Source: Alkalicella caledoniensis | Lineage (GTDB): Bacteria; Bacillota; Proteinivoracia; Proteinivoracales; Proteinivoracaceae | Assembly (NCBI RefSeq): GCF_014467015.1 | Contig: NZ_CP058559.1 | Span: forward strand, 3,162,001-3,226,000 | Direction: 5' to 3' | DNA: 64,000 nucleotides | Shown here: piece by piece, positions 6,063 to 20,833 of the stretch | How the letters are laid out: each line of letters begins with the position of its first letter | Numbering within the stretch: the first letter of the stretch is position 1 | The notes under the pieces: model-generated | What the model saw: the letters and a program-made list of their open reading frames with translations, nothing else | Told to the model about the DNA's origin: nothing | Database searches by the model: none | Translations under genes and position numbers: made by a program

Positions 6063-6068
6063 AAATAC

Positions 6069-6120: not shown

Positions 6121-6166
6121 ATCTTTTTACTTAAATAAGTTAAAAATATTAGAGAGGTGATTATAA

Positions 6167-6274: not shown

Positions 6275-6283
6275 GAAAAGTTA

Positions 6284-6334
6284 TTTACTTAAGAACCTGT
6301 TCTTTTTAGAGCAGGTTCTTAAGTAAATCTTTTG
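6284..6334 (+). terminator. Strong intrinsic terminator
   Basis: Perfect 17-bp stem (ATTTACTTAAGAACCTG and its complement) around TTCTTTTTAGAG, followed by TCTTTT. It ends the 35-residue protein transcript and insulates the sigma-54 promoter just downstream. Confidence 0.8.
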
Positions 6335-6336
6335 GA

Positions 6337-6352
6337 TGGCACAAAAATTGCT
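6337..6352 (+). promoter_or_regulatory. Sigma-54 (-24/-12) promoter 1
   Basis: TGGCAC-AAAAA-TTGCT has the invariant GG (6338-6339) and GC (6350-6351) separated by exactly 10 bases and matches the sigma-54 consensus fully. It points toward copA (start 6605). A sigma-54-type activator gene lies at 11460 and three further matches are nearby. Confidence 0.75.
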
Positions 6353-6429
6353 TTGTTTAATAGATAGTCTACATATTTAACGAAAAATGGTATGGAAAGT
6401 AAAGCAGTCATTAAACTGCAAGAGAAAAG

Positions 6430-6465
6430 TGTAGCATATGCTACAGAGCTGTATCATATCAAACA
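6430..6465. promoter_or_regulatory. Tandem 16-bp dyad pair 1 (candidate activator site)
   Basis: The perfect palindrome TGTAGCATATGCTACA (6430-6445) is followed by a weaker copy at 6450-6465, start-to-start 20 bp. Related pairs occur at 9636/9657, 13204/13225 and 14070/14090. Here no gene ends just upstream and no T-run follows, which favours a protein-binding site over a terminator. Confidence 0.5.
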
Positions 6466-6501
6466 TTTTCAATAATTTATCCATGTAATGTAAAAAAACA
6501 C

Positions 6502-6534
6502 TTGACATTATACCCCTAGGGGGTATAATGTCAA
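6502..6534 (+). promoter_or_regulatory. copA sigma-A promoter with embedded CsoR-like operator
   Basis: TTGACA (6502-6507) and TATAAT (6524-6529) lie 16 bases apart. The whole segment is a 15-bp perfect inverted repeat (TTGACATTATACCCC and complement) around TAG. The core TACCCC-TAG-GGGTA is the pattern bound by the copper(I) repressor CsoR in Firmicutes, so repressor binding would cover both promoter boxes. No csoR gene lies in this window. Confidence 0.8.
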
Positions 6535-6604
6535 TAGAGGTGAATTTAAAAAAGCTAATCTCATAATAAAATAAGTTATCAACTAATATAAAGGGGGCTT
6601 AAAG

Positions 6605-9073
6605 ATGTCAAAGAAAAAACTAGTGTTTAAAATCGAAGGTATGACTTGTAGTAGCTGTGCAAATAACATAGAGAAGAAATTAAAATCTCTAGACGGAATA
6701 CTAACTACCAATATCAACATAGCTACGGAAAAAGGACAAGTTGAATACGACAGTTCTAAGATTGATGAAAAAGCAATTCTCAAAGGTGTAGAAGATGCAG
6801 GCTACAAAGGTAATATTGAAGAAGAAAAGAAACAAGAGAAAGTCACACTGAAGGTTCACGGTATGACTTGCACTGCGTGCTCTAGCAGGGTGGAAAAAGC
6901 TCTAAATAATATGGATGGGATAATATCGGCAAACGTGAATTTCCCAGCAGAAAAAGTGACCATCGAATATGACTCAAGCCAACTTCGGCTACTTGATATA
7001 AAAAAGAAAGTTTCGCAAGTGGGATATGAATTAGACCTTGAAGAAGAAACTCAAGATGATGGTATAGATGAAGATGAGCTTAAAATTAGAAAAACTGCTA
7101 GGACCATGAAGATTTCTATCGGTTTATCAACAGCAATAATGGCACTAATGATGGTTCATATGTTTATAACTCCTATACCTGGATATTTCATTATGACCAT
7201 AGTACTAGGTTTTCCAATTATATTTGGGACAGGATTACATGTCCATAAAGCTAGTTTTAAAGCACTGAAAAACGGAAGTCCAAACATGGATGTACTAGTA
7301 ACACTGGGATCATTACCACCATATTTGATAGGTTTATTAGGATTTTGGTTCCCAATACAAACTTTTATTGAAATGGCTACTACAATAATGACTTTCCATT
7401 TGATAGGGAAGTATTTAGAAGTTCGAGCTAAGGGGAGAGCTTCTCAAGCAATCAAAAAACTTCTGCAAATGGGGGCTAAGACAGCAAAAATCATTGTGGA
7501 TGGAGAAGAAGTTGAAATTCCAGTGAAAGATTTACAAGTAGGGGATATCATGGTAGTACGTCCTGGTGAAAAAATCCCTACTGATGGGGTTGTTGTTGAT
7601 GGAAGCAGTTTAGTTGATGAATCAATGGCCACAGGGGAATCAATGCCTGTGAAAAGGGAAAAGGACCATGAAGTTATTGGAGCTACACTGAACAAGCAAG
7701 GGTTACTAAAAGTTAAGGTAACAAAAATAGGAAAAGATACGTTTTTATCACAAGTTATTAAAATGGTTGAAGAATGTCAAGGTTCCAAAGTTCCTATACA
7801 GGAATTTGCTGACAGAATAACAGGATATTTTATTCCAGCTATTATCATCATTACAGTGGGTACATTTATATCATTTAATATATTCTCAGATTTTCATCTG
7901 AGTATAATCGAATGGGGTTCAACCTTTTTACCATGGGTTAACCCTGACCTAACACCACTTACACTGTCATTTATAACTGCAACAGCAGTTTTGGTTATAT
8001 CTTGTCCATGTGCCCTTGGTCTTGGTACACCTACAGCCCTAATGGTGGGTAGTGGTATAGGGGCAGAGAAAGGCATTTTGATCAGAAATGGTGAAGCTAT
8101 ACAGACTTTTAAAGATGTAAAAGCAATAGCCTTTGATAAAACAGGTACAATAACAAAGGGTAAACCAGAAGTAACTGATTTAGTTATGGTAGAGGGTATA
8201 AAGGATACAGACTTCCTATATTATGCCGGTACAATAGAAAAAGGTTCAGAACATCCATTGGCACATGCCATAGTGGAAAAGGCAAAAGAAGAGAAGATTA
8301 AACTCGGTGAGGTTACTGAATTTAGCGCTCTTGTGGGTATGGGTGTTGAGGGTATGATAGATGGAGAAAGAGTACTTGTAGGTAACAGAAAGCTAATGTC
8401 TGAGAACAATGTTGCCTATGAGAGCTATGAAGAAGAGCTAGTAAGGCTAGAAGAAGAAGCAAAGACTGCTATGCTCTTAGCCAAAGGTACAAAACTACTT
8501 GGTATTGTAGCTGTTGCAGATCCAATAAAAGAAGATTCAGCTCAGGCTATTGCTGAATTAGAAAGTATGGGTATCAAAACAGCCATGATCACAGGAGACA
8601 ATAAGAGAACTGCAGCTGCAATAGGCAAAAAAGTTGGTATCAGTCATGTTATTGCTGAGGTTTTACCTGATGGAAAGGTTGAAGAAGTTGTAAGGCTTCA
8701 AAAACAATATACTACAGTTGCAATGGTTGGTGACGGTATTAACGATGCACCTGCACTTAAACAATCTAACGTTGGTATCGCCATTGGAACAGGGACAGAT
8801 ATTGCAATTGAAGCAGCAGACGTAACCCTAGTTAGGGGAGAGTTAACTGGCATTGTATCAGCTATCAAACTATCTAGGGCTATCTTCAGAAAGATAAAAG
8901 AGAACTACTTCTGGGCGTGGTTCTACAACGCTGTAGCCATTCCAGTAGCTATGTTTGGTTTACTACACCCTATGATTGGTGCTGCAGCCATGGCTATCAG
9001 TTCCCTAAACGTTGTTTATAACTCTCTAAGGCTAAGGAAAGTTAATATAGAGCCGAACTACAAAAAAGCTTAA
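6605..9073 (+). CDS. copA: Copper-translocating P1B-type ATPase CopA
   Basis: 822 residues. Two N-terminal heavy-metal-associated domains carry MTCSSC (Cys15, Cys18) and MTCTAC (Cys89, Cys92). Membrane helices flank the actuator motif (ATGES), the ion-binding CPC motif is Cys467-Pro-Cys469, the phosphorylated Asp is in DKTGT (Asp511), and SEHPLA and GDGINDAP complete the ATP-binding domains. The length and the CPC plus two-domain layout are typical of Cu(I) exporters. It should pump Cu(I) out of the cytosol. It has both a CsoR-like operator/promoter and an upstream sigma-54 promoter. Its terminator begins 30 bases after the stop codon. Confidence 0.96.
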   Translation: MSKKKLVFKIEGMTCSSCANNIEKKLKSLDGILTTNINIATEKGQVEYDSSKIDEKAILKGVEDAGYKGNIEEEKKQEKVTLKVHGMTCTACSSRVEKALNNMDGIISANVNFPAEKVTIEYDSSQLRLLDIKKKVSQVGYELDLEEETQDDGIDEDELKIRKTARTMKISIGLSTAIMALMMVHMFITPIPGYFIMTIVLGFPIIFGTGLHVHKASFKALKNGSPNMDVLVTLGSLPPYLIGLLGFWFPIQTFIEMATTIMTFHLIGKYLEVRAKGRASQAIKKLLQMGAKTAKIIVDGEEVEIPVKDLQVGDIMVVRPGEKIPTDGVVVDGSSLVDESMATGESMPVKREKDHEVIGATLNKQGLLKVKVTKIGKDTFLSQVIKMVEECQGSKVPIQEFADRITGYFIPAIIIITVGTFISFNIFSDFHLSIIEWGSTFLPWVNPDLTPLTLSFITATAVLVISCPCALGLGTPTALMVGSGIGAEKGILIRNGEAIQTFKDVKAIAFDKTGTITKGKPEVTDLVMVEGIKDTDFLYYAGTIEKGSEHPLAHAIVEKAKEEKIKLGEVTEFSALVGMGVEGMIDGERVLVGNRKLMSENNVAYESYEEELVRLEEEAKTAMLLAKGTKLLGIVAVADPIKEDSAQAIAELESMGIKTAMITGDNKRTAAAIGKKVGISHVIAEVLPDGKVEEVVRLQKQYTTVAMVGDGINDAPALKQSNVGIAIGTGTDIAIEAADVTLVRGELTGIVSAIKLSRAIFRKIKENYFWAWFYNAVAIPVAMFGLLHPMIGAAAMAISSLNVVYNSLRLRKVNIEPNYKKA

Positions 9074-9102
9074 TCTATAATTGACATTATAGATTTAAAA
9101 TA

Positions 9103-9154
9103 AAGGGGTTAGGTTGAATTTCCTACTAAAGGATAATTAACCTAACCCCTTTTG
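9103..9154 (+). terminator. copA terminator
   Basis: Stem AAGGGGTTAGGTT (9103-9115) pairs with AACCTAACCCCTT (9139-9151), with a 23-base loop and TTTTG after it. Confidence 0.75.
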
Positions 9155-9207
9155 TGTACCTTTCTTCTCCTGAATTCAAAAAGTTATAGTCTTTGGTGTA
9201 TTTTTAT

Positions 9208-9223
9208 TGGCATGGGTTTTGCA
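9208..9223 (+). promoter_or_regulatory. Sigma-54 (-24/-12) promoter 2
   Basis: TGGCAT-GGGTT-TTGCA, with GG and GC 10 bases apart, lies about 40 bases before the start of the LDCC-type gene. It shares TGGCAY-N5-TTGCW with promoters at 6337, 13281 and 17701. Confidence 0.8.
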
Positions 9224-9261
9224 TACTAGTAATATATGATCTTCAAAAAAGGAGGAGTATC

Positions 9262-9396
9262 ATGAAAAATATTTTAAAGAAGTTAATTGAATCAATTGCG
9301 AAGAGTAATAAAGAGAGTTTTGATAGCAAGAGGTTAGATTGCTGTGACCTTAACAAGAAAAACAATAACGGAGGTAAGAAAAATGGAAAATCATAA
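9262..9396 (+). CDS. LDCC-motif putative metal-binding small protein
   Basis: 44 residues from ATG 9262, placed by GGAGGAGTATC just upstream. An amphipathic basic N-terminus (MKNILKKLIESIAKSNKES) is followed by LDCCDLNKK and an Asn/Gly/Lys tail. The LDCC cysteine pair defines a small family of putative metal-binding proteins in Clostridia. It is the first gene after a sigma-54 promoter and its end overlaps the next gene by 14 bases, so the two are translationally coupled. Metal binding is inferred from the Cys pair and context, not proven. Confidence 0.7.
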   Translation: MKNILKKLIESIAKSNKESFDSKRLDCCDLNKKNNNGGKKNGKS

Positions 9397-9622
9397 TCAC
9401 GGTAAAAGTAAATGGATGATGGTGCTGTGTATGCTACCCCTGGTGGCATTTGTGGTGGTAAGGTTCAGCGGGTTCCAGTTTGGAAGCATAGGCAATTACA
9501 TTCCTTTCATGTTCTTCTTGCTTTGCCCTTTAATTCACGGAGGTATGTTCTATTTCATGTTTAAGGCAGCTAAGGGTAAGAAAGAAGGAAATGATGGAGA
9601 TATAGAAATAGAAAATGCTTAA
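9383..9622 (+). CDS. Small two-helix membrane protein, DUF2933-like, His-rich N-terminus
   Basis: 79 residues from ATG 9383, with GGAGGT 7 bases upstream. The N-terminus MENHNHGKSK holds two His. Two hydrophobic segments follow (about 13-28 and 37-59), the second with Met and Phe clusters, then a Lys/Asp/Glu-rich tail. The layout resembles the DUF2933 family found near copper and other heavy-metal genes, but the match is by pattern only. It overlaps the LDCC gene and shares its sigma-54 promoter. Confidence 0.55.
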   Translation: MENHNHGKSKWMMVLCMLPLVAFVVVRFSGFQFGSIGNYIPFMFFLLCPLIHGGMFYFMFKAAKGKKEGNDGDIEIENA

Positions 9623-9631
9623 TTGCTAAAT

Positions 9632-9680
9632 AAGGTGTAGCATATTAAACAATTTTTGTGGCATATGCTACACCTTGTTT
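9632..9680. terminator. Hairpin formed by dyad pair 2 (terminator or activator site)
   Basis: Two 16-bp dyads, 9636-9651 and 9657-9672 (TGTGGCATATGCTACA), start 21 bp apart. Together they form a stem AAGGTGTAGCATAT / ATATGCTACACCTT. The T-run after it is weak (TTGTTT). It ends the LDCC/DUF2933-like unit and lies about 55 bases before the next small gene. Confidence 0.55.
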
Positions 9681-9726
9681 AATGCTAAGTGTACCTATTT
9701 GAACTAAGAGAGGAGGAGTAAAGTAC

Positions 9727-9828
9727 ATGAACGGTTTCGATATCATTTTTATCATGGTTGCTGCTGTTTGGATTTTCTTTATGTTTAGGAGAGGGGGATG
9801 CTGTGGAGGAGGAAAACATCATAGATAA
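9727..9828 (+). CDS. 33-residue membrane micro-protein with GGCCGGGKHH tail
   Basis: ATG is preceded by GAGAGGAGGAGTAAAGTAC, a near-perfect ribosome-binding site. Residues 4-20 form one membrane helix, then RRGGCCGGGKHHR ends the protein. The CysCys-GlyGlyGly-x-His tail could bind a soft metal at the membrane face. The same GCCGGG-x-x-H pattern appears at the N-terminus of the protein at 13461, so the two look like related modules with opposite order. Confidence 0.65.
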   Translation: MNGFDIIFIMVAAVWIFFMFRRGGCCGGGKHHR

Positions 9829-9891
9829 GTTGAAAAAACATAAGGTATTCTATAAACTATAATAAAGAAACAATGCGAATGGGGTGGAAAA

Positions 9892-10098
9892 ATGCCTATT
9901 TTAGTTTGTTTAGCCATGGCGGGTATTTTATATTTTTTACTAGATGGCGTAATAGGGGACAAAGATAATACAAAAACAAATACAAGTGATATTGCAGTCT
10001 CTGAGCCCTGTGCTGGTTGTGGCAAGAAAGTAAACAATACTTGGAGATACTGCCCCTTCTGTGGTTATGTCAAGGAAACTGGTGAGAAAAATGAATAA
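9892..10098 (+). CDS. Membrane-anchored zinc-ribbon protein
   Basis: 68 residues: one N-terminal membrane helix (about 2-20), a short acidic linker, then CAGCGKKV and CPFCGY, a four-Cys zinc ribbon in the cytosol. GGGTGGAAAA lies upstream of the ATG. The stop codon overlaps the start of the histidine kinase gene (ATGAATAA arrangement), so it is translationally coupled to that kinase and may belong to the same signalling unit. Confidence 0.75.
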   Translation: MPILVCLAMAGILYFLLDGVIGDKDNTKTNTSDIAVSEPCAGCGKKVNNTWRYCPFCGYVKETGEKNE

Positions 10099-11470
10099 AA
10101 GGCATTTTTTTACTACTTTAGTTATGGTGGTTTTAATAACACTTCTGCACTATTACCTTTTTAGCAACAGAATGGTTTTTCATGATTTAGTTAGAATATT
10201 TTATTATATTCCTATAGTCTATGGAGCATTTGTTTATAGGCTAAAGGGTGGAGTAATCATATCCAGCATAGTGGTAATTCTCTATGCTCCTCACTTGATA
10301 ATGTATTTTGGGGTTGTAAATTTTGAAGTGGTTTACCAGTTGCTAGAGTTACTGATGTTTATATTGGCGGGCTTAGGGATAGGTTATCTAGTTGAAAAAG
10401 ATCATATCAAACGAATGGCCATTGAAAGACAAGTGGTTAAGATAACAGATTTAGAAAACTATAACCATAATATTTTAGATAGTATAGAAAGTGGCATAGT
10501 TGCTTTTGATTCAAAGGGAAAACTCAAATTTGTGAATCACAAAGCTAATGAAGAATTTAAAGGGTTAAAATATGTCGAAAAATTTTTAAAACAATACTGT
10601 ATTGAAGAATCTATTGAAGATGTTTTACATGGAGGTACGGAAGGTATTACCCGGGAGATAAATCACAAAGAAGAATCATATGAGTTAAGTTGCATGCCAA
10701 TTATGACCATAAATAAAGATATTGAAGGAGTCGTAGTAAGCATCAAAAATATAACTATGATGAAGGCACTAGAGGAGCAAGTGCGCCGTGGAGATAGATT
10801 GTCAGCCGTTGGAAACTTAGCTGCAGGAATAGCCCACGAAATACGCAACCCTTTAGGGATTATTAAAACAATTAGTCAAACACTACAAAGTGGCGAAAAC
10901 CACGAATCTGAAAACCTTAAAGAAGGTTTGGAAATTATAGACCATGAAATAAACCGTGCTAATGATGTTGTTAAATGGCTCTTAGATTTTGCAAAGCCTG
11001 AGCAATATTCTCCCCAGCCCATTAACTTATCCGAAGTAATAAATCAGCTTTCTAGTATATTCAGTAAATACTCTGAAAAAAAATCTGTGGATATAAAATT
11101 AAACAACAAGGATAATATATGGACATACGGGGATCAAGAAAAGCTAAAACAAGCTTTTGTAAACCTCATGTTAAATGGAATTGAGTCTATATCAGGAAAC
11201 GGCATAATGGATATATCTCTAAAAGTAGAAGATTACAACTGTGTTCTTCAGATAATAGATAGTGGGTGTGGGATAAAGCAAGAAATCACAGAAAAAATAT
11301 TTAACCCTTTTTTTACTACCAAGGAAAAAGGAACAGGACTAGGACTTTCCATAACCCATAAGATTATTGAGCAGCATAAGGGTAAGTTAAAAATAGAAAG
11401 TGTAGAAGGTAAAGGTACGAAGGTTATGGTTTATTTGCCTTTATATGAGGGGGATAGGAATGAAGAATAG
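10091..11470 (+). CDS. Membrane sensor histidine kinase, NtrB/ZraS-like
   Basis: About 459 residues from ATG 10091, which overlaps the stop codon of the zinc-ribbon gene. Four hydrophobic segments fill residues 1-105 with almost no external loop. A PAS domain (about 125-225), a HisKA domain with His249 in GIAHEIRNPLG and an HATPase domain (NPFFTTKEKGTGLGLSI) follow. The SAVGNLAAGIAHEIRNPLG signature is typical of kinases paired with sigma-54 activators. With no large sensor loop, it may sense through the membrane or PAS domain. The 3' end overlaps the response regulator gene. Confidence 0.92.
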   Translation: MNKRHFFTTLVMVVLITLLHYYLFSNRMVFHDLVRIFYYIPIVYGAFVYRLKGGVIISSIVVILYAPHLIMYFGVVNFEVVYQLLELLMFILAGLGIGYLVEKDHIKRMAIERQVVKITDLENYNHNILDSIESGIVAFDSKGKLKFVNHKANEEFKGLKYVEKFLKQYCIEESIEDVLHGGTEGITREINHKEESYELSCMPIMTINKDIEGVVVSIKNITMMKALEEQVRRGDRLSAVGNLAAGIAHEIRNPLGIIKTISQTLQSGENHESENLKEGLEIIDHEINRANDVVKWLLDFAKPEQYSPQPINLSEVINQLSSIFSKYSEKKSVDIKLNNKDNIWTYGDQEKLKQAFVNLMLNGIESISGNGIMDISLKVEDYNCVLQIIDSGCGIKQEITEKIFNPFFTTKEKGTGLGLSITHKIIEQHKGKLKIESVEGKGTKVMVYLPLYEGDRNEE

Positions 11471-12809
11471 GATTCTTGTGGTAGACGATGAACGAAATAT
11501 GAGATGGGCTATAAAAAACGCATTGGTTAAAGAGGGCTTTGATGTTTTTGAAGCCAGTAATGGAAAAGAAGGTTTAGAGATGCTTGCAAGTATTGAACCT
11601 AATTTGGTACTGTTGGATATTCGTATGCCTGGCATGGATGGTATAGAAACTTTGACGGAAATAAAAAAGAAAGATAAAGACGTACCTGTAATCATGATCA
11701 CAGCCCATGGGACCATGGAAATGGCAATAGATGCGTTAAAGTTAGGGGCCTTAGACTTTGTATCTAAACCCTTTGAACTTGAAAAACTCAAAATAATTAT
11801 TCGAAATGCCTTAGACCTCAGAAATATGAAAGAAGAAATATCGTACTTGAAAGAAGAGTTGAGATACAACACAGGACAAAGGATTATTGGATCCAGTAAA
11901 AAAATGCAAGATGTTTTAGATATGGTGAATCGTGTAGCTAAAACAAATGCTACAGTGCTGATTTTAGGTGAAAGTGGAACAGGTAAAGAGGTTATAGCCA
12001 ATGCTGTACATTACAACAGTGATCGTAAGGATAACCCATATATAAAGGTAAATTGTGGTGCTATTCCTGAAAATTTAATAGAAAGTGAACTATTTGGATA
12101 TGAAAAAGGTGCTTTTACAGGTGCTGGTTCAAGGAAAATTGGGAAGTTTGAGAGGGCAAACAAAGGAACTATTTTCTTAGATGAGATTGGTGAACTTAGC
12201 TTACCACTACAGGTTAAGCTTTTACGTGTACTCCAGCAAAAAGAATTTGAGCGGGTTGGTGGTACTGAAAATATAAAAATAGATATTAGAATAATAACAG
12301 CTACAAACAAAAACCTATTGGAGATGGTGGAAAAAGGATTGTTCAGGGAAGATTTGTACTATAGGTTGAATGTTATTCCCATTGAGCTACCCCCATTGAG
12401 GGAAAGAGTTGAGGATATTCCACAACTTATAGACTATTTCACAGAGAAATATTCCCTAGAACTAAGCAAAAAAGACGTTAAAATAGATAGTTCCGTTATA
12501 CAAATCCTCTGTGATTATACTTGGAAAGGTAACATTAGGGAGCTAGAAAATGTTATTGAACGCATGGTTATACTGTGTGACGGTAATAGAATAACAGAGA
12601 ATATTATACCTGCAGAGGTCAAAATCCCTTCTACCTCTGAAAACAGTATTGTATTACCTGCCAAAGGTTTAAAGCTAGAAGAGGTAGAAAAAGAACTGAT
12701 AGTGCAAGCCCTAACCCGTACTGACAATAATCAAACAAAGGCAGCTAGATTACTTGGAATCACTAGGCACACCCTCCTTTATAGAATGGAGAAATATTCA
12801 ATTAAATAA
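11460..12809 (+). CDS. Sigma-54-dependent response regulator (NtrC/ZraR type)
   Basis: 449 residues from ATG 11460, inside the end of the kinase gene; GAGGGGGATAGG precedes it. The receiver domain holds Asp9-Asp10, phospho-acceptor Asp53, Thr80 and Lys102. The AAA+ domain holds GESGTGKE (about 170-177), the sigma-54 contacting loop GAFTGA (about 217-222) and a DEIGE Walker B. A Fis-type helix-turn-helix (TKAARLLGITRHTLLYRM) ends the protein. It should oligomerise on upstream sites and open sigma-54 promoters. Four such promoters lie within 7 kb, at 6337, 9208, 13281 and 17701. Its closest functional analogue in layout is the zinc-responsive ZraSR pair of enterobacteria, which is an inference. 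Confidence 0.95.
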   Translation: MKNRILVVDDERNMRWAIKNALVKEGFDVFEASNGKEGLEMLASIEPNLVLLDIRMPGMDGIETLTEIKKKDKDVPVIMITAHGTMEMAIDALKLGALDFVSKPFELEKLKIIIRNALDLRNMKEEISYLKEELRYNTGQRIIGSSKKMQDVLDMVNRVAKTNATVLILGESGTGKEVIANAVHYNSDRKDNPYIKVNCGAIPENLIESELFGYEKGAFTGAGSRKIGKFERANKGTIFLDEIGELSLPLQVKLLRVLQQKEFERVGGTENIKIDIRIITATNKNLLEMVEKGLFREDLYYRLNVIPIELPPLRERVEDIPQLIDYFTEKYSLELSKKDVKIDSSVIQILCDYTWKGNIRELENVIERMVILCDGNRITENIIPAEVKIPSTSENSIVLPAKGLKLEEVEKELIVQALTRTDNNQTKAARLLGITRHTLLYRMEKYSIK

Positions 12810-12831
12810 GTGTTTAAGGGGAGGAATTTAT

Positions 12832-13203
12832 ATCAAAAAGGGAGACAAAATAATTATTGCTATAGTACTTATACTGGGATTAAGCATGGGGGGGTACTTT
12901 TTGTACGGATTACCACCTATGGAAGATGGTTATGTAATAATAAATGTAGATGGAACCATTATTGATAAGATACCTGTTTTTTCAGATGTTGAAGAGACTG
13001 TATATCACGACTTTATTTTTGGTGAACATGAACATGTGGGAACATTAGAAATCATAGGAAATAGGGTGAGAATGTTACCTATGCCCACTGATATCTGCCC
13101 AGAAGGGATATGTTCAGATACAGGCTTTATAAGTGGTATGTTTCAAAATATAGTTTGTATGCCCAATAAAATACATGTATATCTAGATATTGATGGTATT
13201 TAG
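12832..13203 (+). CDS. NusG domain II-containing membrane protein, apparent AUC start
   Basis: About 123 residues: a short basic N-terminus, a membrane helix (about 7-27), then the NusG-II fold with YVIINVDG and the signature CPEGICSDTGF plus QNIVCMPNKI. Family members are common in Clostridia, often near redox or FMN-transfer genes, and their role is unknown. GGGGAGG (12818-12824) sits 7 bases before an in-frame ATC. No ATG, GTG or TTG occurs in frame between the regulator's stop codon and this site. The only canonical upstream start is a TTG at 12754 inside the regulator gene, with no ribosome site. AUC initiation is therefore the best reading; a base-calling error (ATG to ATC) is the alternative. 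Confidence 0.75.
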   Translation: MKKGDKIIIAIVLILGLSMGGYFLYGLPPMEDGYVIINVDGTIIDKIPVFSDVEETVYHDFIFGEHEHVGTLEIIGNRVRMLPMPTDICPEGICSDTGFISGMFQNIVCMPNKIHVYLDIDGI

Positions 13204-13248
13204 TGTAGTCAATGACACAAGCATTGTGGCATTGGCTACACTTTTTTT
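13202..13248 (+). terminator. Terminator built from dyad pair 3
   Basis: Dyads at 13204-13219 and 13225-13240 (TGTGGCATTGGCTACA) start 21 bp apart and fold into a long stem followed by seven T. It ends the kinase-regulator-NusG-II operon. The pair also sits 42-78 bases upstream of the -24 box at 13282, the normal place for an activator site, so it may have both roles. Confidence 0.7.
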
Positions 13249-13280
13249 GAATGATTACTGTTTACATTGACTTCTAAAGT

Positions 13281-13296
13281 TGGCATGTAAATTGCT
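13281..13296 (+). promoter_or_regulatory. Sigma-54 (-24/-12) promoter 3
   Basis: TGGCAT-GTAAA-TTGCT, with GG (13282-13283) and GC (13294-13295) 10 bases apart. It points to the micro-protein gene at 13461. Dyad pair 3 lies just upstream. Confidence 0.8.
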
Positions 13297-13334
13297 TATA
13301 TATTTGTTAAGAACAAATTTCTTCTGTTGAGTTT

Positions 13335-13395
13335 AAGAGCCTTAACCTTCTTTAAAATTAAATTTCCCCTTCTTCATAAACTTAAGGCTCTTTTT
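13335..13395 (+). other. Long-loop hairpin in the 5' leader of the 13461 unit
   Basis: AAGAGCCTTAA (13335-13345) pairs with TTAAGGCTCTT (13382-13392) around a 36-base loop, followed by TTT. It lies about 25 bases after the expected sigma-54 start site and could act as an attenuator or leader structure. No ribosome site is hidden in it. The rest of 13249-13460 shows nothing else I can name. Confidence 0.5.
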
Positions 13396-13460
13396 ACTCA
13401 GCTCAGATCTCTTTAGTAAGAAAAATATGAAAGATAGTATTTATGAAGGGAGGTGGAGTA

Positions 13461-13613
13461 ATGGGATGTTGTGGTGGAGGACATAATCACCTAAATAAAA
13501 ATAAAAATACCGAAAATTATAATAATAAGCCAGATACTGTCAGCAATACAAACACGATGCTTTGGGTAGGGGGAATGTTAGTTCTAATTGCGATAGTTTC
13601 TTATATATTTTAA
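13461..13613 (+). CDS. 50-residue micro-protein with N-terminal MGCCGGGHNH and C-terminal membrane helix
   Basis: ATG is preceded by AAGGGAGGTGGAGTA. The protein opens with MGCCGGGHNH, continues with an Asn/Lys-rich linker and ends in a hydrophobic helix (about residues 33-50), giving a tail-anchored layout. CysCys-Gly3-His-x-His is a plausible metal site. It mirrors the GGCCGGGKHH tail of the protein at 9727. It is the first gene after sigma-54 promoter 3. Confidence 0.65.
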   Translation: MGCCGGGHNHLNKNKNTENYNNKPDTVSNTNTMLWVGGMLVLIAIVSYIF

Positions 13614-13673
13614 GTTTTTTAATACAAATCTAATAGAAATCTAATAATAATTTAATTACACATGGAGGAAAAG

Positions 13674-14057
13674 ATGAACATAAGAGTGCTACTAATACAC
13701 AGAGATAAGAACATTTATTGGACAATAAGTAATGCCTTGACGAGAGCAGGTTTTATTACATTTCATGCCAGTAGTGGTGATGAAGGTATTGATGTACTAA
13801 ATCAAATAGACCCAGGTGTAGTGGTGATAAATGTAAATGAAGGCATCACAGGTAGGAAAAATATACTTAAGGAAATTAAAAAGAATCCAAGAACATCAGT
13901 AATAGCTGTTGGGAATAATCTAAAAAGCCAAGCTGTAAAGGAAATAATAGAATTGGGAGCTATATATATCAGCGTGAAATCACTAGAAATTAACAAATTG
14001 ATAAAAACAATAAATGAATCCGTTAAATATAATAAGAGTTTGGCAATATCAGTCTAA
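13674..14057 (+). CDS. Degenerate receiver-domain protein (pseudo-receiver)
   Basis: 127 residues from ATG 13674, which has GGAGG 5 bases upstream; the ATG at 13662 is part of that site and was rejected. It aligns without gaps to the receiver domain of the regulator at 11460, but the acidic pair is His9-Arg10, the phospho-acceptor is Asn53 and the Thr80 position is Gly; only Lys102 is kept. There is no output domain. It therefore cannot be phosphorylated in the normal way. It may bind the kinase or the full regulator as a decoy or adaptor. It is co-transcribed with the micro-protein at 13461. Confidence 0.75.
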   Translation: MNIRVLLIHRDKNIYWTISNALTRAGFITFHASSGDEGIDVLNQIDPGVVVINVNEGITGRKNILKEIKKNPRTSVIAVGNNLKSQAVKEIIELGAIYISVKSLEINKLIKTINESVKYNKSLAISV

Positions 14058-14065
14058 TAAATATA

Positions 14066-14118
14066 AAAATGTAGCATTTCCTACACAGAAGTAGAAGATG
14101 CTACATTTTTATATTTAC
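14066..14118 (+). terminator. Terminator built from dyad pair 4
   Basis: TGTAGCATTTCCTACA (14070-14085) and a related dyad at 14090-14105 start 20 bp apart. The outer arms AAAATGTAGCAT / ATGCTACATTTT form the stem, followed by T-rich sequence. It ends the micro-protein/pseudo-receiver unit. Confidence 0.65.
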
Positions 14119-14207
14119 AAAATATTATTTATGTAATTTAAGTGGTATTTCTATAAAGTTAATCATATAAATTAAAAAACCAGTTACTAACAGAAGGAGG
14201 AAGATCA

Positions 14208-14912
14208 GTGAGCGGATTTATGAACCTTTTAGAGGGATTAATTATGGGAAATTCATTATTAGTATATATAATAGTATTCTTGATTGGATTTATTTCATCA
14301 TTAAACCCCCATATGCTAGGGATGGTACCTATTTATCTAGGTACTACAATTGAAAGTGAGCAGGGGAAGAAGAAGTGGAGCGGTTTATTCCTTTTTGCAT
14401 TGAGCTTTTCCATTATTTTAACAGCACTTGGGATGATTGTATCCACTGTGGGCATGTCTTTACACTCAATTATGACTATTAGTTATACCTTTGCAGGGAT
14501 AATATACCTTTACTTGGGTTTAAGGCTCCTTGGGCTTCGCATCAGTAAATTTATACCCTTTAAAATCGTTGTGCTTTATACAAAGAAAAAGAAATCGGGA
14601 AAGAGAATTTTAAGTAATATCTTTTTGCCATTAATATTTACACCATGTAGTCTACCCTTTATTATTTCAGTATTAACATTGGCAATGATGAGGGGGAGTA
14701 TTATATACGGAGGATTGATATTACTGGTTTTTGGTCTGGGTCATAGCTTAATATTCATTTTGTTTGGTGCTTTCTCAAATTCAATAGTAAAAATATACGA
14801 AAAGATCCAGCACGGAAACTTTATTAATAAACTACTGGGTGCGTTACTTGTTATACTGGGTGTAGTTTTCCTACTTCTAAATCAGAGTCCAGAAATACAT
14901 AACCATCATTAA
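14208..14912 (+). CDS. CcdA/DsbD-like membrane protein lacking the first conserved Cys
   Basis: 234 residues from GTG 14208, placed by AGAAGGAGGAAGATCA. Six predicted membrane helices. The second half keeps the CcdA motif (IFTPCSLPFI), but the equivalent site in the first helix reads SLNPHMLGMVP instead of SPCxLPLxP, so only one of the two redox cysteines remains. CcdA proteins normally pass electrons from thioredoxin across the membrane. This one may have lost that activity or be a metal-handling relative. It ends in HNHH. It sits between the pseudo-receiver and a Met-rich secreted protein. Confidence 0.75.
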   Translation: MSGFMNLLEGLIMGNSLLVYIIVFLIGFISSLNPHMLGMVPIYLGTTIESEQGKKKWSGLFLFALSFSIILTALGMIVSTVGMSLHSIMTISYTFAGIIYLYLGLRLLGLRISKFIPFKIVVLYTKKKKSGKRILSNIFLPLIFTPCSLPFIISVLTLAMMRGSIIYGGLILLVFGLGHSLIFILFGAFSNSIVKIYEKIQHGNFINKLLGALLVILGVVFLLLNQSPEIHNHH

Positions 14913-15029
14913 TTTATCAGGGAGAAAAATGAAATGGCAAATTTCTTCATAATTTCTTCAAAATCTTTTAATATACTAAGCTTAAACCAATACAAAACAA
15001 ACAACAAATTTGAAGGAGGAATAATAATT

Positions 15030-15464
15030 ATGAACAAAAAAGTATTAATTTTAATTGCAGCCCTAGCAATCACTGTAATATCACTAGGAGGTTTAGCCTT
15101 AGCTAGTGATACAGATTCAGATATTATTGGAAGCGTTGTGCCAAGAAATGGATTTGGAGCACGAAGCACTAACCACTGTGGCGGAGATGATATGCTAGAA
15201 ATTATGAAGGAAAATGGGTTCGAAGATATGGCTCTTGCTATGGAACAAGGAGATTTTGAAGCCATGAATGAGTATATGAATAACCTTACAGAGGAAGAAT
15301 ATCAACAAATGCTTGATTTAATGGATGATAATGGTTTTGGAAATATGACAAGAATGATGGAATCCATAGGATTTGAAGGAATGGTTAATATGCACAATTC
15401 TATGATGGGTGGTAGAAATAAGAGTGGTTTCATGGGAAATATGATGGGACGCTTTAACAACTAA
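15030..15464 (+). CDS. Secreted Met-rich acidic protein (putative metal-binding)
   Basis: 144 residues from ATG 15030 (AAGGAGG 10 bases upstream). It has a clear signal peptide (Lys, long hydrophobic stretch, cleavage near ALAS-DTD, residues 24-28), then an acidic helical region with repeated E-x-M/N-E-Y-M segments. The C-terminus is rich in Met and Gly (NSMMGGRNKSGFMGNMMGRF). About 22 Met in 144 residues plus NHC suggest extracytoplasmic Cu(I) binding, in the spirit of CopK, Spy or ZraP-like proteins, although no sequence homology is claimed. It lies 5' of an OmpR-type two-component system and has its own terminator. Confidence 0.65.
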   Translation: MNKKVLILIAALAITVISLGGLALASDTDSDIIGSVVPRNGFGARSTNHCGGDDMLEIMKENGFEDMALAMEQGDFEAMNEYMNNLTEEEYQQMLDLMDDNGFGNMTRMMESIGFEGMVNMHNSMMGGRNKSGFMGNMMGRFNN

Positions 15465-15473
15465 ATAGAAAAG

Positions 15474-15515
15474 TATAATATCCAGTATTGAAAAATACTG
15501 GATATTATAGTATCT
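15474..15515 (+). terminator. Intrinsic terminator
   Basis: Perfect 16-bp stem TATAATATCCAGTATT and complement around GAAA, followed by GTATCTTT. It ends the Met-rich protein transcript. Confidence 0.75.
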
Positions 15516-15545
15516 TTAACCCAGTCACGCATGGTAGGAGGTGTT

Positions 15546-16250
15546 ATGGTGGAAAGAAAATCTATAAATATATTGGTTGTTGATGATGAAACTGAAATAG
15601 TAAATGTGTTAAAGGCTTACCTAGGTAAGGAAGGGTATACAGTCTTTACTGCTTTTGATGGAGTAGAAGCAATAGAAATCATTACTAATAATAAAATTGA
15701 TTTTATTGTTCTCGATTTAATGCTACCAAGCTTGAGTGGGGAAGAGGTATGTAAGGAAATTCGAGATACTTCAAATGTTCCAATACTTATGCTAACTGCA
15801 AAGGTGGAAGAATACGAGCGAATACATGGTTTGGATATTGGGGCTGATGACTACATGACAAAACCTTTTAGCCCTAAGGAACTTGTGGCTCGGGTAAAAG
15901 CCATACTTAGGAGGACGAGGGTGGAGAATAGAAGTAATTCCATGGTTTTCGAAAAAAACCACTTATCCATAGATCTAGATAAAAAAGAAGTTAAAAAAAG
16001 AGGCTTATTAGTAGAGTTAACCAATACAGAATACAAACTATTACTACTACTTTCTCAAAATCAAGGGAGAGTATTCAGTAGAGACGAGTTGGTCCTAAAG
16101 GTTCTAGGGTATGACTATGAGGGATATGACAGAACAATAGATACACATATAAAAAATATACGGCACAAAATTGAAGAAAAAGATGTAAAGTATATTTTTA
16201 CTGTATATGGTGTTGGTTACAAGTTTGTTGGTGAAAAAGATGTTAAATAA
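15546..16250 (+). CDS. OmpR/PhoB-family response regulator
   Basis: 234 residues from ATG 15546 (TAGGAGGTGTT upstream; ATG 15531 precedes that site and was rejected). The receiver domain has VVDDE, phospho-acceptor Asp in IVLDLMLP, and Lys in MTKPFSP. A winged-helix DNA-binding domain follows with [35 protein letters not shown] and [10 protein letters not shown]. Its end overlaps the histidine kinase gene. With that kinase it resembles CusRS/CssRS-type surface stress systems. Confidence 0.93.
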
Positions 16251-17667
16251 GCTGCGGTCTAGGGTAATACTTTTGGTATTGGGAGGAGCTATTTTTTCCA
16301 TAATCTTAGTTAGCATTATTACTAACATCAATCTGCTAGGGGAATTTGACACATACATGAGAAATGAGCACCAGGATAGATTGAATAACCTAATTCAAGT
16401 AGTGGAACAGTCCTACACCCTAAACAATGGGTGGACCGATGATGCCCTTAAGAGTGTTAGTTCATCCCCTGATATTATTAACTTTGATATAGAGATAAGG
16501 GATATATACCAAAACACAATTTTTACACACTTTATGGAGAGTACCATAATTAAAATGCATAATGATATGATGCAAAGGATAGGGCATGGGATGATGGGAA
16601 GAAGGCAGTCTGAAGCTTTGGATAACCGGCTTAGAGATGATAATTACTTTGTTGAAGGTTATGACCTGATAGTTGATAATAAGTTAGTGGGCACAATCAT
16701 AGTTGGTCAGTTAGGTCCTTTTATTGCCACAGAAAGAGAGGTTCAATTTACTCGAGGTATTAACTACTCCATTTTTTATAGTGCAGTTATATCTATTTTA
16801 ATAGCGGTTATATTTGGTGTTCACTCTTCTAAAGTATTCTCAACACCTATTATTAAGATAACTGAAGCAGCAAATAAAATAAGGGAAGGTAATTTAGGTA
16901 CTCATGTGGAGATAGATAACTCAATTGATGAACTTAAAGAGTTGTCACAATCAATTAATCATTTATCTACATCTCTTGCGAATCAAGAAAATTTACGTAA
17001 GAGACTAACTTCAGACATATCCCATGAATTGCGCACACCTTTGACAATATTGCAAAGTCACATAGAAGCACTAAGTGACGGAATATGGGAGCCTACACCG
17101 GAAAAATTAGATATATGCAAAAAAGAAGTTGTACGGCTTATTAACCTTGTGGAAGAATTAAGGCATCTGAATGAAATTGAGAACCATGATCTTGTCCTAA
17201 ATACGCAAAATTTCTCATTGTCGGATGAAATATTAGAGATAACCAATAGCTTTGAGCATAGCTTTAAACAGGAAAATATAAGTCTCAGAGTAAGAATTGA
17301 AGATAATATAGTGTACAATGGGGACAGGAATAAAATCAGGCAAGTAATCATTAACCTACTCTCAAATTCAATGAAATTTACAAATACAGAAGGTCTAGTA
17401 AATGTTAACTTGGTCAAGGCAAACAATAATATCAAAGTAATTATTGAAGACACAGGTATTGGCATTGATGAAAATGAGTTACCATTTATATTTGAGAGAT
17501 TTTATAGAACTGATCAATCCCGCAGTAGGAAAACTGGTGGGACAGGGATTGGACTTTCCATAGCAAAAACTCTAGTTGACGCCCATGGTGGAAAAATAAC
17601 CGTTGAAAGTGAAAAGGGTAAGGGGACAAGATTTATTATAACTTTGCCTATAGATCCACAAATATAA
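16240..17667 (+). CDS. Sensor histidine kinase with Met/His-rich extracytoplasmic loop
   Basis: 475 residues from ATG 16240 inside the end of the regulator gene. Membrane helices near residues 8-30 and 180-205 enclose a sensor loop of about 150 residues that includes [17 protein letters not shown], a cluster of Met and His suited to Cu(I) or Ag(I). HAMP, HisKA ([11 protein letters not shown]) and HATPase domains ([32 protein letters not shown]) follow. The pairing with an OmpR-type regulator and the Met-rich secreted protein next door suggest surface metal sensing. The ligand is inferred. Confidence 0.9.
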
Positions 17668-17700
17668 AAGCGAACCTTGAAGAGGTTCGCTTTTATATTT
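17661..17700 (+). terminator. Intrinsic terminator after the two-component operon
   Basis: 16-bp stem AATATAAAAGCGAACC and complement around TTGAAGA, running directly into the sigma-54 promoter at 17701. Confidence 0.8.
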
Positions 17701-17716
17701 TGGCATAGTTATTGCA
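17701..17716 (+). promoter_or_regulatory. Sigma-54 (-24/-12) promoter 4
   Basis: TGGCAT-AGTTA-TTGCA, with GG and GC 10 bases apart, immediately after a terminator and pointing toward lgt (17834). It matches the three other sigma-54 promoters of the island. Confidence 0.78.
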
Positions 17717-17748
17717 TTATAAAATAACAGGACTGAAAGGTTAAACAC

Positions 17749-17811
17749 ATGGAGGTGGAGGTTGGGGTAGTTTCTGCATTAAAGAAAGAGTTTATAAAAG
17801 TATTGAAATAG
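17749..17811 (+). CDS. Possible 20-residue leader peptide
   Basis: ATG with GAAAGG about 9 bases upstream opens a 20-codon frame (starts MEVEVGVVSAL, ends KEFIKVLK) between sigma-54 promoter 4 and lgt. It is amphipathic and ends 22 bases before the lgt start. It is too short to support by composition. Confidence 0.25.
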   Translation: MEVEVGVVSALKKEFIKVLK

Positions 17812-17833
17812 ATGCCAATGAGAGGAGAAATAT

Positions 17834-18694
17834 ATGAAACTATTATTTAATATTGGTGGTATAGGTATACATTTGTTTGGTATAACAATGGCATTAGGAA
17901 TTGTAGCAGGGCTTTATATAGTTGTTAGGGAGGTTAAAAGAAAAGGTTTGGAACTTGAGAAGACATTTGATTTGGCCTTTTATACAATTATCGTTGGAGT
18001 AGTAGGGGCAAGGCTCAATTATATATTGGCTTTTAATCCAAGCTTTTACTTTAATAACCCTAAAGAGATATTTATGATCCAAAATGGTGGTTTATCTATA
18101 CAGGGGGCACTGATTGCAGGAATTGTTTTTGCAATTTGGTATATGAAAAGAAATGGCATGCCTGTTTGGAAAACAGCAGATGCATTTGCTCCTGGAATAA
18201 TATTAGGTCAGGGTATTGGTAGGGTAGGTTGCGATGTATTTGGTATCCCCATGACTGGGCAGTGGTTTTGGGGGATTAATATTGGAGGGCAACTGTTGCA
18301 TCCCGCACAGATGTATGAGGCCATCTTAAATTATATTTTGTTTTTAATACTATGGAGCAAAAGAAAAAACACTAGGTATAATGGTCAGTTATTTGTCATG
18401 TACTTCATTGGTTTTTCCATGAACAGGTTTATAGTTGAGTTTTTTAGGGAGAATCCTTTAGTTATTGGGAGGCTGTCCGTTGCTCATGTGTATAGCCTAA
18501 TATTTATAGCTGTAGCGATTTTACTAGATAGGTTCTTACAAAATTTGAGCCAAAAGACTCAGACAAGTGTAGCAAATGACACAACTCAAGAAAAGAAGAA
18601 GATTGAGCAGAATAAAGAATTTTTACTGAGTATAATAACTATAGGAATACTGACTATTCTATCTCTATTTATCTACTATAATGTGCATTTGTAA
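17834..18694 (+). CDS. lgt: Prolipoprotein diacylglyceryl transferase (Lgt) homologue
   Basis: 286 residues, seven hydrophobic segments. GQGIGRVGCDVFGIPM corresponds to the Lgt signature (usually GRIGNFIN), LHPAQMYEAI to the HPxQLYE motif, and YFIGFSMNRFIVEFFR to the conserved C-terminal Arg segment. Lgt moves diacylglycerol from phosphatidylglycerol to the lipobox Cys. The variant signature and its place behind a sigma-54 promoter suggest a specialised paralogue rather than the housekeeping enzyme. AGAGGAGAAATAT precedes the ATG. The C-terminal 40 residues add a charged segment and an extra helix. Confidence 0.85.
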   Translation: MKLLFNIGGIGIHLFGITMALGIVAGLYIVVREVKRKGLELEKTFDLAFYTIIVGVVGARLNYILAFNPSFYFNNPKEIFMIQNGGLSIQGALIAGIVFAIWYMKRNGMPVWKTADAFAPGIILGQGIGRVGCDVFGIPMTGQWFWGINIGGQLLHPAQMYEAILNYILFLILWSKRKNTRYNGQLFVMYFIGFSMNRFIVEFFRENPLVIGRLSVAHVYSLIFIAVAILLDRFLQNLSQKTQTSVANDTTQEKKKIEQNKEFLLSIITIGILTILSLFIYYNVHL

Positions 18695-18725
18695 TCTATA
18701 GCTTTGAAAGGTTGTGTAAAAGCAT

Positions 18726-19283
18726 ATGGCTAAAAAAATGTTAGTGATATTTATAATATTTACGTTTATAGGTCTTGGTGTTTTTCAAGGAATCTCCCTT
18801 TACGTCGGTTCTAGAAACACTAACTCTGGTAACTATATGGTTGATGAGTTTGATTTTAAAGAAAATGATTCCATTGAAAATGAATTCAAAGACAAGTTTA
18901 ATGATGATATTAATGATGATATTAATGATGATATTAATGATGATGAACTTTTCAGAGAAGATTTTCAAGGTGATGTGATTATAGGTGTTATGCTTAGTGG
19001 GCTAGATGAAGCAAACAAACTAATGTTTGAAATATCCATGGATACACATACCGTTGACTTAGATCAATATGATTTAGGCAAAATGAGCAACGTTTTGATT
19101 GGTGAAAAATACGTGTCAGAAGGAATAGAGTGGGAAATAGTATCTGGAGCAGGCCATCACATTTTCGGAATATTAACGGTTCAAGTTGATGAACTTTCTA
19201 AGGATTTACTAAACGAGCCAATTACTCTAGAGATTAAGGGACTAGATGACATACCTGTCAGAACATTTACCTGGAATAATTAG
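18726..19283 (+). CDS. Secreted or membrane-anchored acidic protein with DDIN repeats
   Basis: 185 residues. An N-terminal helix (about 4-24) acts as signal or anchor and has no lipobox Cys, so the neighbouring Lgt is unlikely to modify it. An Asp-rich segment with DDIN repeats (from an in-frame 12-bp DNA repeat) leads into a domain of about 110 residues that I do not recognise. The strands look beta-rich. The stop codon falls inside the 8-bp duplication made by the adjacent IS256 element, and the same stop would exist without the insertion, so the protein is intact. Confidence 0.6.
   Translation: MAKKMLVIFIIFTFIGLGVFQGISLYVGSRNTNSGNYMVDEFDFKENDSIENEFKDKFNDDINDDINDDINDDELFREDFQGDVIIGVMLSGLDEANKLMFEISMDTHTVDLDQYDLGKMSNVLIGEKYVSEGIEWEIVSGAGHHIFGILTVQVDELSKDLLNEPITLEIKGLDDIPVRTFTWNN
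18901..18945 (+). repeat. In-frame 12-bp tandem repeat
   Basis: ATGATGATATTA repeated three times plus a partial fourth copy. Being a multiple of three, changes in copy number would lengthen or shorten the Asp-rich linker without breaking the frame. Confidence 0.9.
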
Positions 19284-19284
19284 A

Positions 19285-20833
19285 GAGAGCGTAATAAATT
19301 ACGTGTAATTGGATAATAATACCACTAAAAAAGGGGTTGTCCAATTATGACTACAAAGGGTAATTTATTAGCCAAAGAATTAGCAAAAGAGTGCCGAAGT
19401 GTAGAAGAAGTACAAGAACACTTAAAAAGTTTATTCAAAGATACTATGCAGGAAATCTTCGAAGCTGAAATGGATGAGCATTTAGGCTATGATAAACACT
19501 CACCCATTGGCGATCATTCAGGGAATAGTAGAAATGGTTACAACAAGAAAACCATTAAGACTAAGTACGGAGAATCAACCATAGAAATCCCAAGGGATCG
19601 TAATGGGGATTTTGAACCACAAGTAATCAAGAAATATCAACGGACTAGCAATGAGCTCGAAGATAAAATAATATCCATGTATGCTAACGGAATGACCACA
19701 CGTGACATAGAAAGCCATATGCAAGATATCTACGGCATCGAGGTATCAGCAACAATGGTTAGTAAAGTTACAGACAGGATACTACCTATGATTGCTGAAT
19801 GGCAATCTAGGCCACTAGATAGGATCTACCCTATAGTTTTCCTTGATGCAATTCACTTTAAAGTTCGTGAAGATAACAGGATAATTAATAAAGCGGCTTA
19901 CAGTGTACTAGGTATAAATATGGCAGGTCACAAGGAAGTTTTAGGAATATGGATTGGTGGTAACGAAAGTTCAAAGTTCTGGCTAGGAGTACTTAATGAC
20001 CTTAAAAATAGAGGTGTAGAAGACATCCTAATTGCTTGTAAGGACGGACTTTCAGGCTTTTCTGAGGCTATTAACTCTGCCTTTCCAAAAACAGAAATAC
20101 AGCTATGTGTTATTCACCAAATCAGAAACTCGATGAAGTATGTTTCGTATAAAGAAATGAAACAGGTAATGGTAGACCTGAAAAAAGTATACCAAGCTTT
20201 AACTCTTGATGAAGCAGAATATGCTTTTGAAGAGTTCAAAGAAAAGTGGGGTAAAAAACACCCAATAATTATTAAATCATGGGAAAAAAATTGGGATGAG
20301 TTAACTGTTTACTTTAAGTATCCTAACGAGATACGTAAATTGATCTATACTACAAATACCATCGAAGCATACCATAGACAGCTGCGTAAAGTTACTAAAA
20401 CTAAAACATCTTACCCTAACGATGAAGCCTTAGAAAAAATATTGTACTTAGCTACCATGGAAATATCTAAGAAGTGGACTCAACCACTTAGGATCTGGAA
20501 ACAATGTATCTCCCAGTTTGCAATATATTTTGAGGATAGAATTGACTCAAATTTAGCTGTTTAGTGCTGGGCTTTGCCCAGGAGTTTATCGCTTTAGTTC
20601 TCCCAAGGATAGAAAAAAGGACAAAAAAAGATAGAGGGTCAGATCCTCTATCCTCGGCAGAACCTTACTAATCGCTCAGGTTACTCTCCAGTATTGCCTT
20701 ATCCTTTTAGTAAGTAAGAGCCATGAATATTATATCCCAGTAATGGGAAAATATTTCTGATGTATGTTTAGATTTTCTACTAGTAGATGCAGTAAAGTAA
20801 GAAATCCAATTACACTAAATTATTTATACTCCC
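19285..20833 (+). mobile_element. IS256-family insertion sequence, 1549 bp, complete
   Basis: Terminal inverted repeats of 30 bp share the inner part GTGTAATTGGAT exactly and begin GAGAGCG and GGGAGTA. The flanking 8-bp sequence TAATTAGA (19277-19284 and 20834-20841) is a perfect target duplication. One transposase gene occupies 19347-20564. The 270 bases after it hold two small hairpins (near 20566 and 20628) and no gene. It lies between the 18726 gene and the palindrome that probably was its terminator. Confidence 0.92.
19347..20564 (+). CDS. IS256-family (mutator-type) transposase
   Basis: 405 residues, the full family length. N-terminal region VQEHLKSLFKDTMQEIFEAEMDEHLGYDKH is diagnostic of the family. 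The DDE triad is visible as Asp in FLDAIHFKV, Asp in CKDGLSGF and Glu in TNTIEAYHRQLRK, with CVIHQIRNS between. The gene is intact, with AAAAAAGGGGTTGTCCAATT upstream of the ATG. Confidence 0.95.
   Translation: MTTKGNLLAKELAKECRSVEEVQEHLKSLFKDTMQEIFEAEMDEHLGYDKHSPIGDHSGNSRNGYNKKTIKTKYGESTIEIPRDRNGDFEPQVIKKYQRTSNELEDKIISMYANGMTTRDIESHMQDIYGIEVSATMVSKVTDRILPMIAEWQSRPLDRIYPIVFLDAIHFKVREDNRIINKAAYSVLGINMAGHKEVLGIWIGGNESSKFWLGVLNDLKNRGVEDILIACKDGLSGFSEAINSAFPKTEIQLCVIHQIRNSMKYVSYKEMKQVMVDLKKVYQALTLDEAEYAFEEFKEKWGKKHPIIIKSWEKNWDELTVYFKYPNEIRKLIYTTNTIEAYHRQLRKVTKTKTSYPNDEALEKILYLATMEISKKWTQPLRIWKQCISQFAIYFEDRIDSNLAV

Follow-up and report, generated by a model that had tools for sequence, protein, structure and literature searches.

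The window analyzed here is a 64,000-nucleotide stretch of the Alkalicella caledoniensis genome. Its forward strand carries the gene for a copper-type P-type ATPase (6605–9073; TIGR01511, 553 bits against a cut-off of 397), followed by genes for a sensor histidine kinase with a membrane N-terminus (10091–11470, kinase 10091) and an NtrC-type sigma-54 regulator with receiver, AAA+ and Fis-type helix-turn-helix domains (11460–12809, regulator 11460). Neighboring genes encode a NusG_II-domain protein (12829) and a DsbD-type membrane protein (14208). Copper or silver is the signal that we infer for the kinase–regulator system. The regulator scored best against the AtoC model and the kinase against AtoS, then ZraS, with all scores below the curated cut-offs. 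The pair therefore resembles AtoSC/ZraSR-type systems, but the kinase has a membrane N-terminus of its own, with matches in 12 of the 398 phylum genomes searched (A. caledoniensis included). We know of no AtoSC or ZraSR-type system of which a stand-alone receiver is a part. Tiny membrane-type proteins with a GCCGG(G)-H motif are encoded twice in the window on the forward strand: a 33-residue protein ending in GGCCGGGKHHR (9727–9828), with a counterpart at locus L105 of another genome (near 8222), and a 50-residue protein, P0004, that begins MGCCGGGHNH and has a C-terminal hydrophobic stretch (13461–13613). Others lie at loci L109 (near 11272) and L110 (near 15368), where a GCCGGHNH-like stretch is combined with a Cys-rich segment (VCGM...FCSETC), presumably a YHS-type metal domain. 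A search for P0004 in 12 further genomes of the class gave no match.

The gene under study, PsR, follows P0004 on the same strand (13674–14057). It is a real gene for a receiver-only protein of 127 residues. The ATG start has GGAGG close upstream, and codon usage is gene-like: the reading frame scores 0.234 log-odds per codon, the other frames tried score 0.011, −0.106 and −0.182, and the regulator scores 0.275. The only Pfam domain at cut-off is Response_reg (PF00072; 9.6e-9, 35.8 bits, cut-off 30.2), and the protein contains no cysteine. AlphaFold2 predicted a (beta-alpha)5 fold with a pLDDT of 87.3, from an alignment of 23 rows that consisted mostly of true receivers and so biased the model toward that fold; Foldseek matched the model to the receivers of Spo0F, KdpE, NtrX and NtrC1.

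An exact sigma-54 −24/−12 element (TGGCATGTAAATTGCT, 13281–13296, forward strand) precedes P0004. The original prediction had assigned this promoter to PsR; the element is real in sequence, but it stands before the 50-residue gene, and PsR is the second gene of a two-gene unit. No strong hairpin was found between the two genes, and the long hairpin after PsR (14058–14117; −29.4 kcal/mol, z −12.3) is a likely terminator. The leader holds another hairpin (13326–13402), a possible attenuator, with an 11-bp inner stem, a 36-base loop and a following U run; taken whole, the leader was no stabler than shuffled versions (z −0.98), and no known RNA element reached the gathering threshold in 6000–20700. 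The pattern TGGCAN6TTGCW has four exact matches in the window, the others being at 6337–6352 (upstream of the copper-type ATPase gene), 9208–9223 (ahead of the small genes upstream of the kinase) and 17701–17716 (before the prolipoprotein diacylglyceryl transferase gene at 17834), all on the forward strand. Genome-wide there were 51 matches, versus 4 for the reversed pattern. The sigma-54 activator domain has 20 matches in the genome, so the promoter alone cannot name its activator. Exact elements occurred in six of eight kinase-bearing neighborhoods in other genomes and in three of four other neighborhoods, and hence do not discriminate orthologous loci.

A more specific feature came to light through a terminator scan that showed two similar dyads; a de novo dyad search of the four sigma-54 promoters had found nothing. 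Tandem palindromes, TGTAGTCAATGACACA and TGTGGCATTGGCTACA, occupy 13204–13240 and are a putative enhancer for the regulator. Another palindrome, TGTAGCATATGCTACA, lies with a weaker partner between the promoter and copA (6430–6465), and a second tandem pair, TGTAGCATATTAAACA and TGTGGCATATGCTACA, at 9636–9672. The exact form TGTRGCATNNSCTACA occurs at four places in the 3.7-Mb genome (6430, 9657, 13225 and 14070), all within 8 kb at the copper-type locus. All four are paired with a weaker site at a distance of 20 or 21 bases (6430/6450, 9636/9657, 13204/13225 and 14070/14090), and no such pair arose in 20 Markov versions of the window. When one mismatch was allowed, there were 36 matches genome-wide, many of them a single recurrent form (TGAAGCAT...), and the weaker matches thus lack specificity. 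Regularly spaced one-mismatch matches of the form TGAAGCATNGGCTACA (contig C1, 205375–205651 and 285635–286204) suggest a repeat family elsewhere in the genome that is probably unrelated to the enhancer. The sites at 13204–13240 form a hairpin followed by a T run, the terminator of the preceding gene, and those at 14070–14085 and 14090–14105 are part of the hairpin after PsR. Terminator function is thus a second reason for the dyad shape at these two places; the site at 9657 is terminator-like too, and that at 6430 lies outside the terminator scan. The palindromes associated with the 6337 and 9208 promoters are, unusually, downstream of them.

The palindrome recurs with the system. Allowing up to three mismatches, TGTRGCATATGCYACA was found at all seven loci in other genomes where kinase and regulator are both present, with 10 sites in all (null mean 1.30, maximum 4 in 30 shuffles), and at none of five other loci (null mean 0.83), one of which, L106, has a kinase without a regulator match. 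Sites were located at L105 (8166/8187), L107 (9794/9814), L108 (5391), L109 (10083), L110 (14246), L111 (14323) and L112 (7517). The recognition-helix region of the regulators reads RHT, RYT, RPT or RQA at palindrome loci and RSA or other forms elsewhere, in a small sample that was judged by eye and has the L110 regulator outside its rows. Two of the loci are irregular. The regulator orthologue at L110 (genome G234; 10872–12019, reverse strand) seems broken, with residues 57–118 missing and a frame change near 11861, which could be a contig error; the kinase orthologue at L106 (genome G002; 7803–8807, reverse strand) matches residues 2–333 only, and no regulator match was found within 16.8 kb. 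The form TGTRGCAT..GCYACA, often paired 20–21 bases apart, accompanies the kinase–regulator system in several families and is a candidate enhancer that would define a copper-type sigma-54 regulon. Since the exact palindrome is local to the regulator and related sites are present at seven of seven orthologous loci, regulator 11460 very probably switches on the P0004–PsR unit, as had been predicted. Both the −24/−12 element and the candidate enhancer sites for induction of PsR by its own system are present.

Within the 3.70-Mb genome, PsR is matched best by the receiver of regulator 11460 (33% identity over 2–114, 54.7 bits); the second-best receiver scored 24.6 bits. This ranking agrees with the paralogy put forward in the original prediction. 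The accompanying claim of a gapless alignment gave way to one with a single gap, for a residue absent from PsR near position 75, in which 36 of 127 positions are identical; ungapped, 29 of 127 match, compared with a mean of 8.8 and a maximum of 22 in 20,000 shuffles. The predicted losses are borne out by the alignment. The metal-binding acids D9 and D10 of the regulator are H9 and R10 in PsR, the phospho-acceptor D53 is N53, and the switch residue T81 is G80, with the lysine kept (K103 in the regulator, K102 in PsR); the Thr80 and Lys102 of the prediction are in PsR numbering. Four of the five conserved active-site residues (DD, D and T) are therefore lost and only K remains, the pattern of a pseudo-receiver. 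The aromatic residue three positions before the lysine, which serves Y–T coupling, has changed from F100 to I99, and the proline after the lysine from P104 to S103.

In the best phylogenetic tree, PsR was placed beside regulator 11460, but this grouping is unsupported (47/55). Its branch is very long and its composition odd, and the tree also allowed placement with the regulator of locus L113 (p 0.29) or with the receiver at 15546 (p 0.45). After the local regulator, the top matches of PsR were mostly receivers of regulators of about 450 residues. The NtrC-type ancestry of PsR owes more to the ranking of matches in the genome and the phylum than to the tree; most probably PsR arose by duplication of the receiver of the local regulator. 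The best match outside the genome, at 44.4 bits in a search of 398 genomes of the phylum, is the L113 regulator, in which Glu replaces the phospho-acceptor Asp. This full-length NtrC-type regulator itself carries a pseudo-receiver (4562–4945, reverse strand), in which Glu-His stands for the acid pair.

The identity that remains is unevenly distributed over the fold. Across beta1, alpha1, beta2, alpha2 and alpha3, PsR is identical to its own regulator at 20 of 47 positions (0.43), close to the 0.42 expected from the level at which 20 other regulators match that regulator. From beta4 through the beta5–alpha5 loop, together with beta3 and its loop, the count is 8 of 41 (0.20; expected 0.59), with 1 of 10 in alpha4 and 0 of 5 in beta5, and alpha5 has 3 of 21 (0.14; expected 0.29). 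The contrast between sides, for a grouping of elements set after inspection of the table, is 0.402 (permutation p 0.0004), compared with at most 0.189 among the 20 other regulators. Five alpha1 positions, which we take to be equivalent to the kinase-side contacts of Spo0F, read N-I-T-N-A in PsR and N-M-A-N-A in the regulator (three of five identical), and Asn20 of PsR is shared by two of the 20 other regulators. PsR thus appears to have kept the kinase-docking half (alpha1–alpha3) and lost the catalytic loops and the alpha4–beta5–alpha5 face. A docking surface kept while catalysis, switch and dimer face are gone is the expected look of a kinase blocker, though not proof of one; alpha1 may instead have been retained because folding or a different partner requires it.

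No orthologue of PsR was found. At family and at order level the search space was one set of five genomes (four with a match, A. caledoniensis included), and the matches outside the genome lay inside frames of 232–451 residues. Among the 398 genomes of the phylum, 253 had some receiver match and none an orthologue; a scan of the genome contigs gave three weak receivers and nothing more, and no relatives were found in plasmids or viral contigs. Neighborhoods were fetched from eight of the 11 further genomes in which the kinase had a match and from four genomes chosen by their match to PsR, and in these tblastn hit the receivers of regulators only, with no stand-alone copy; for three genomes with weak kinase matches (G015, G163 and G236), and for a second place in G155, the view covered loci of about 3.3 kb. 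The system therefore appears to run without PsR elsewhere, and PsR to be an extra in this lineage. Random decay, with a lack of orthologues as one sign of it, was among the refutations that the original prediction had named. That sign is borne out in part, as no orthologue turned up in these searches; together with the long branch, the unusual composition and the loss of four active-site residues it would fit a functionless duplicate that is open by chance. Simulations make decay unlikely. In place of dN/dS, DNA of the regulator's receiver was mutated randomly to the protein divergence of PsR, and 7 of 3000 runs stayed free of stop codons; six other mutation settings gave 0 to 11 of 500 at the same divergence and 0 to 36 of 500 when halted earlier, at 60 of 128 identical. 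Scored against a profile built from 22 receivers, PsR reaches 62.3 bits, while 1000 stop-free runs gave 18.6 ± 9.2 with a maximum of 51.7, none of them equalling PsR. Hydrophobic core positions are kept at 34 of 41, a modest signal because the simulated mean of 28.7 came with a maximum of 37. The ribosome-binding site, in-frame codon usage and terminator also speak against decay, which we regard as very improbable. PsR is a real pseudo-receiver, probably under selection and probably induced by the regulator.

Small receiver-only proteins that restrain a kinase have precedents. FixT and Osp are described in the available parts of two papers as receiver-only, lacking the acid pair, unphosphorylated, induced by their system and inhibitory to kinase autophosphorylation (PMC7078487; PMC9430884). 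FixT of Sinorhizobium and Caulobacter, which inhibits FixL, is like PsR in its receiver-only form, its lost acid pair and its lack of a phosphate acceptor, and it is induced by the system it resembles, as we propose for PsR; it differs in belonging to another regulator class (FixLJ/FixK rather than NtrC-type), and the Caulobacter protein has a four-Cys Fe–S motif (PMC7078487, as available). Fe–S sensing of that kind is ruled out for PsR, which has no cysteine. Osp of Rhodobacter sphaeroides, which is induced by CtrA and inhibits CckA, also lacks the two acids before alpha1, and its gene is turned on by the system's own regulator in a negative loop, again as proposed for PsR. In contrast to PsR, Osp has kept the Asp and lost the Lys, acts in a hybrid kinase/ChpT/CtrA relay rather than an NtrC-type sigma-54 pair, and has a demonstrated rather than a proposed inhibitory activity (PMC9430884, as available). 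These likenesses are by published features, not by sequence alignment, and no FixT or Osp model was among the NCBIfam or Pfam matches. The accessible portion of a review of pseudo-receivers puts them at about 6% of bacterial receivers, calls their control largely a mystery and reports that the pseudo-receiver domains of ShkA and CikA inhibit autophosphorylation; FixT and Osp are not named in that portion (PMC12632262). The accessible portion of a study of Clostridiales sigma-54 regulons mentions neither heavy metals nor P-type ATPases (PMC6615313). Searches of the open-access literature turned up no feedback inhibitor of receiver-only form for an NtrC/sigma-54 system, which is not proof of absence, and no description of this copper-type sigma-54 system.

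We propose, with moderate confidence, that PsR is a FixT/Osp-like feedback inhibitor of kinase 10091. The active kinase would phosphorylate regulator 11460, which would bind the palindromes at 13204 and 13225 and activate sigma-54 polymerase at 13281. PsR, made together with the tiny Cys/His-rich membrane protein, would use the alpha1 side that it has kept to dock on the kinase; having no phosphoryl acceptor, it would lower autophosphorylation or block the regulator's access. The outcome would be a negative feedback brake, like that of FixT on FixL or Osp on CckA. This reading draws on the lost catalytic set, the retained and lost sides, the promoter and repeated palindromes, all legible in the DNA, and on the kinship with the 11460 receiver, the survival of frame and fold beyond that of the neutral simulations, the predicted receiver fold and the published precedents. 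The original prediction had offered two roles, decoy for the kinase and heterodimer partner of the regulator. The first is the better of the two (20/47 versus 8/41), although "blocker" describes it more aptly; a phosphate-sink decoy is ruled out by Asn53 in place of the acceptor Asp.

The second role, in which a mixed receiver dimer would poison or pre-activate assembly of the regulator ring, gains from the fact that the regulator's receiver is the closest relative of PsR. Receiver pairs are also known (WhiI–BldM) or proposed (CmrT–CmrR), according to the accessible review text, and CmrT of Clostridioides difficile and WhiI/BldM of Streptomyces, like PsR, are pseudo-receivers beside or with a two-component regulator; they are, however, full regulators with DNA-binding domains, and PsR has none (PMC12632262). 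What weakens pairing is that the identity is lowest in alpha4 and beta5, the face through which NtrC-family receivers dimerize (PMC12632262, as available), so that by sequence PsR lacks this face, and that the Y–T coupling residues are gone as well. A heterodimer is less likely than a feedback inhibitor of the kinase, and we consider it improbable. Somewhat less remote, but still unlikely, is that PsR serves as an always-on effector or adaptor of another partner, controlled by its amount only. That partner could be P0004, with which PsR is co-transcribed, or the second local kinase (16237), in keeping with the kinship to the 15546 receiver that the tree allows, or something else. Pseudo-receivers are described as binding varied partners (FrzS–SgmX, CikA–KaiB), and expression-only control has been proposed for CmrT, in the available text (PMC12632262). 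No positive feature points toward any one such partner, and PsR is identical to the 15546 receiver at 19 of 121 positions, compared with 36 of 127 for the 11460 receiver. On these figures the second kinase was rejected as the main partner, though weakly, given the tree p value of 0.45.

As a brake on kinase 10091, PsR would have a function that is known in kind; the setting would be new, and the origin would likely lie in the cognate regulator. We suggest only tentatively that a copper-type sigma-54 system present in several families gained an anti-kinase here, by duplication of its own receiver, stripping of the catalytic and dimer faces and retention of the docking face under the same enhancer. 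If so, PsR would capture the emergence of a feedback inhibitor from the very regulator that it restrains. Brakes of the FixT/Osp kind would then extend to an NtrC-type system, and the cognate regulator's own receiver would be a route by which such a brake can originate. The circuit is compact, with kinase, regulator, promoter and enhancer all nameable, which makes the anti-kinase idea testable with few purified parts, and the palindrome offers a testable regulon for the copper-type sigma-54 system.
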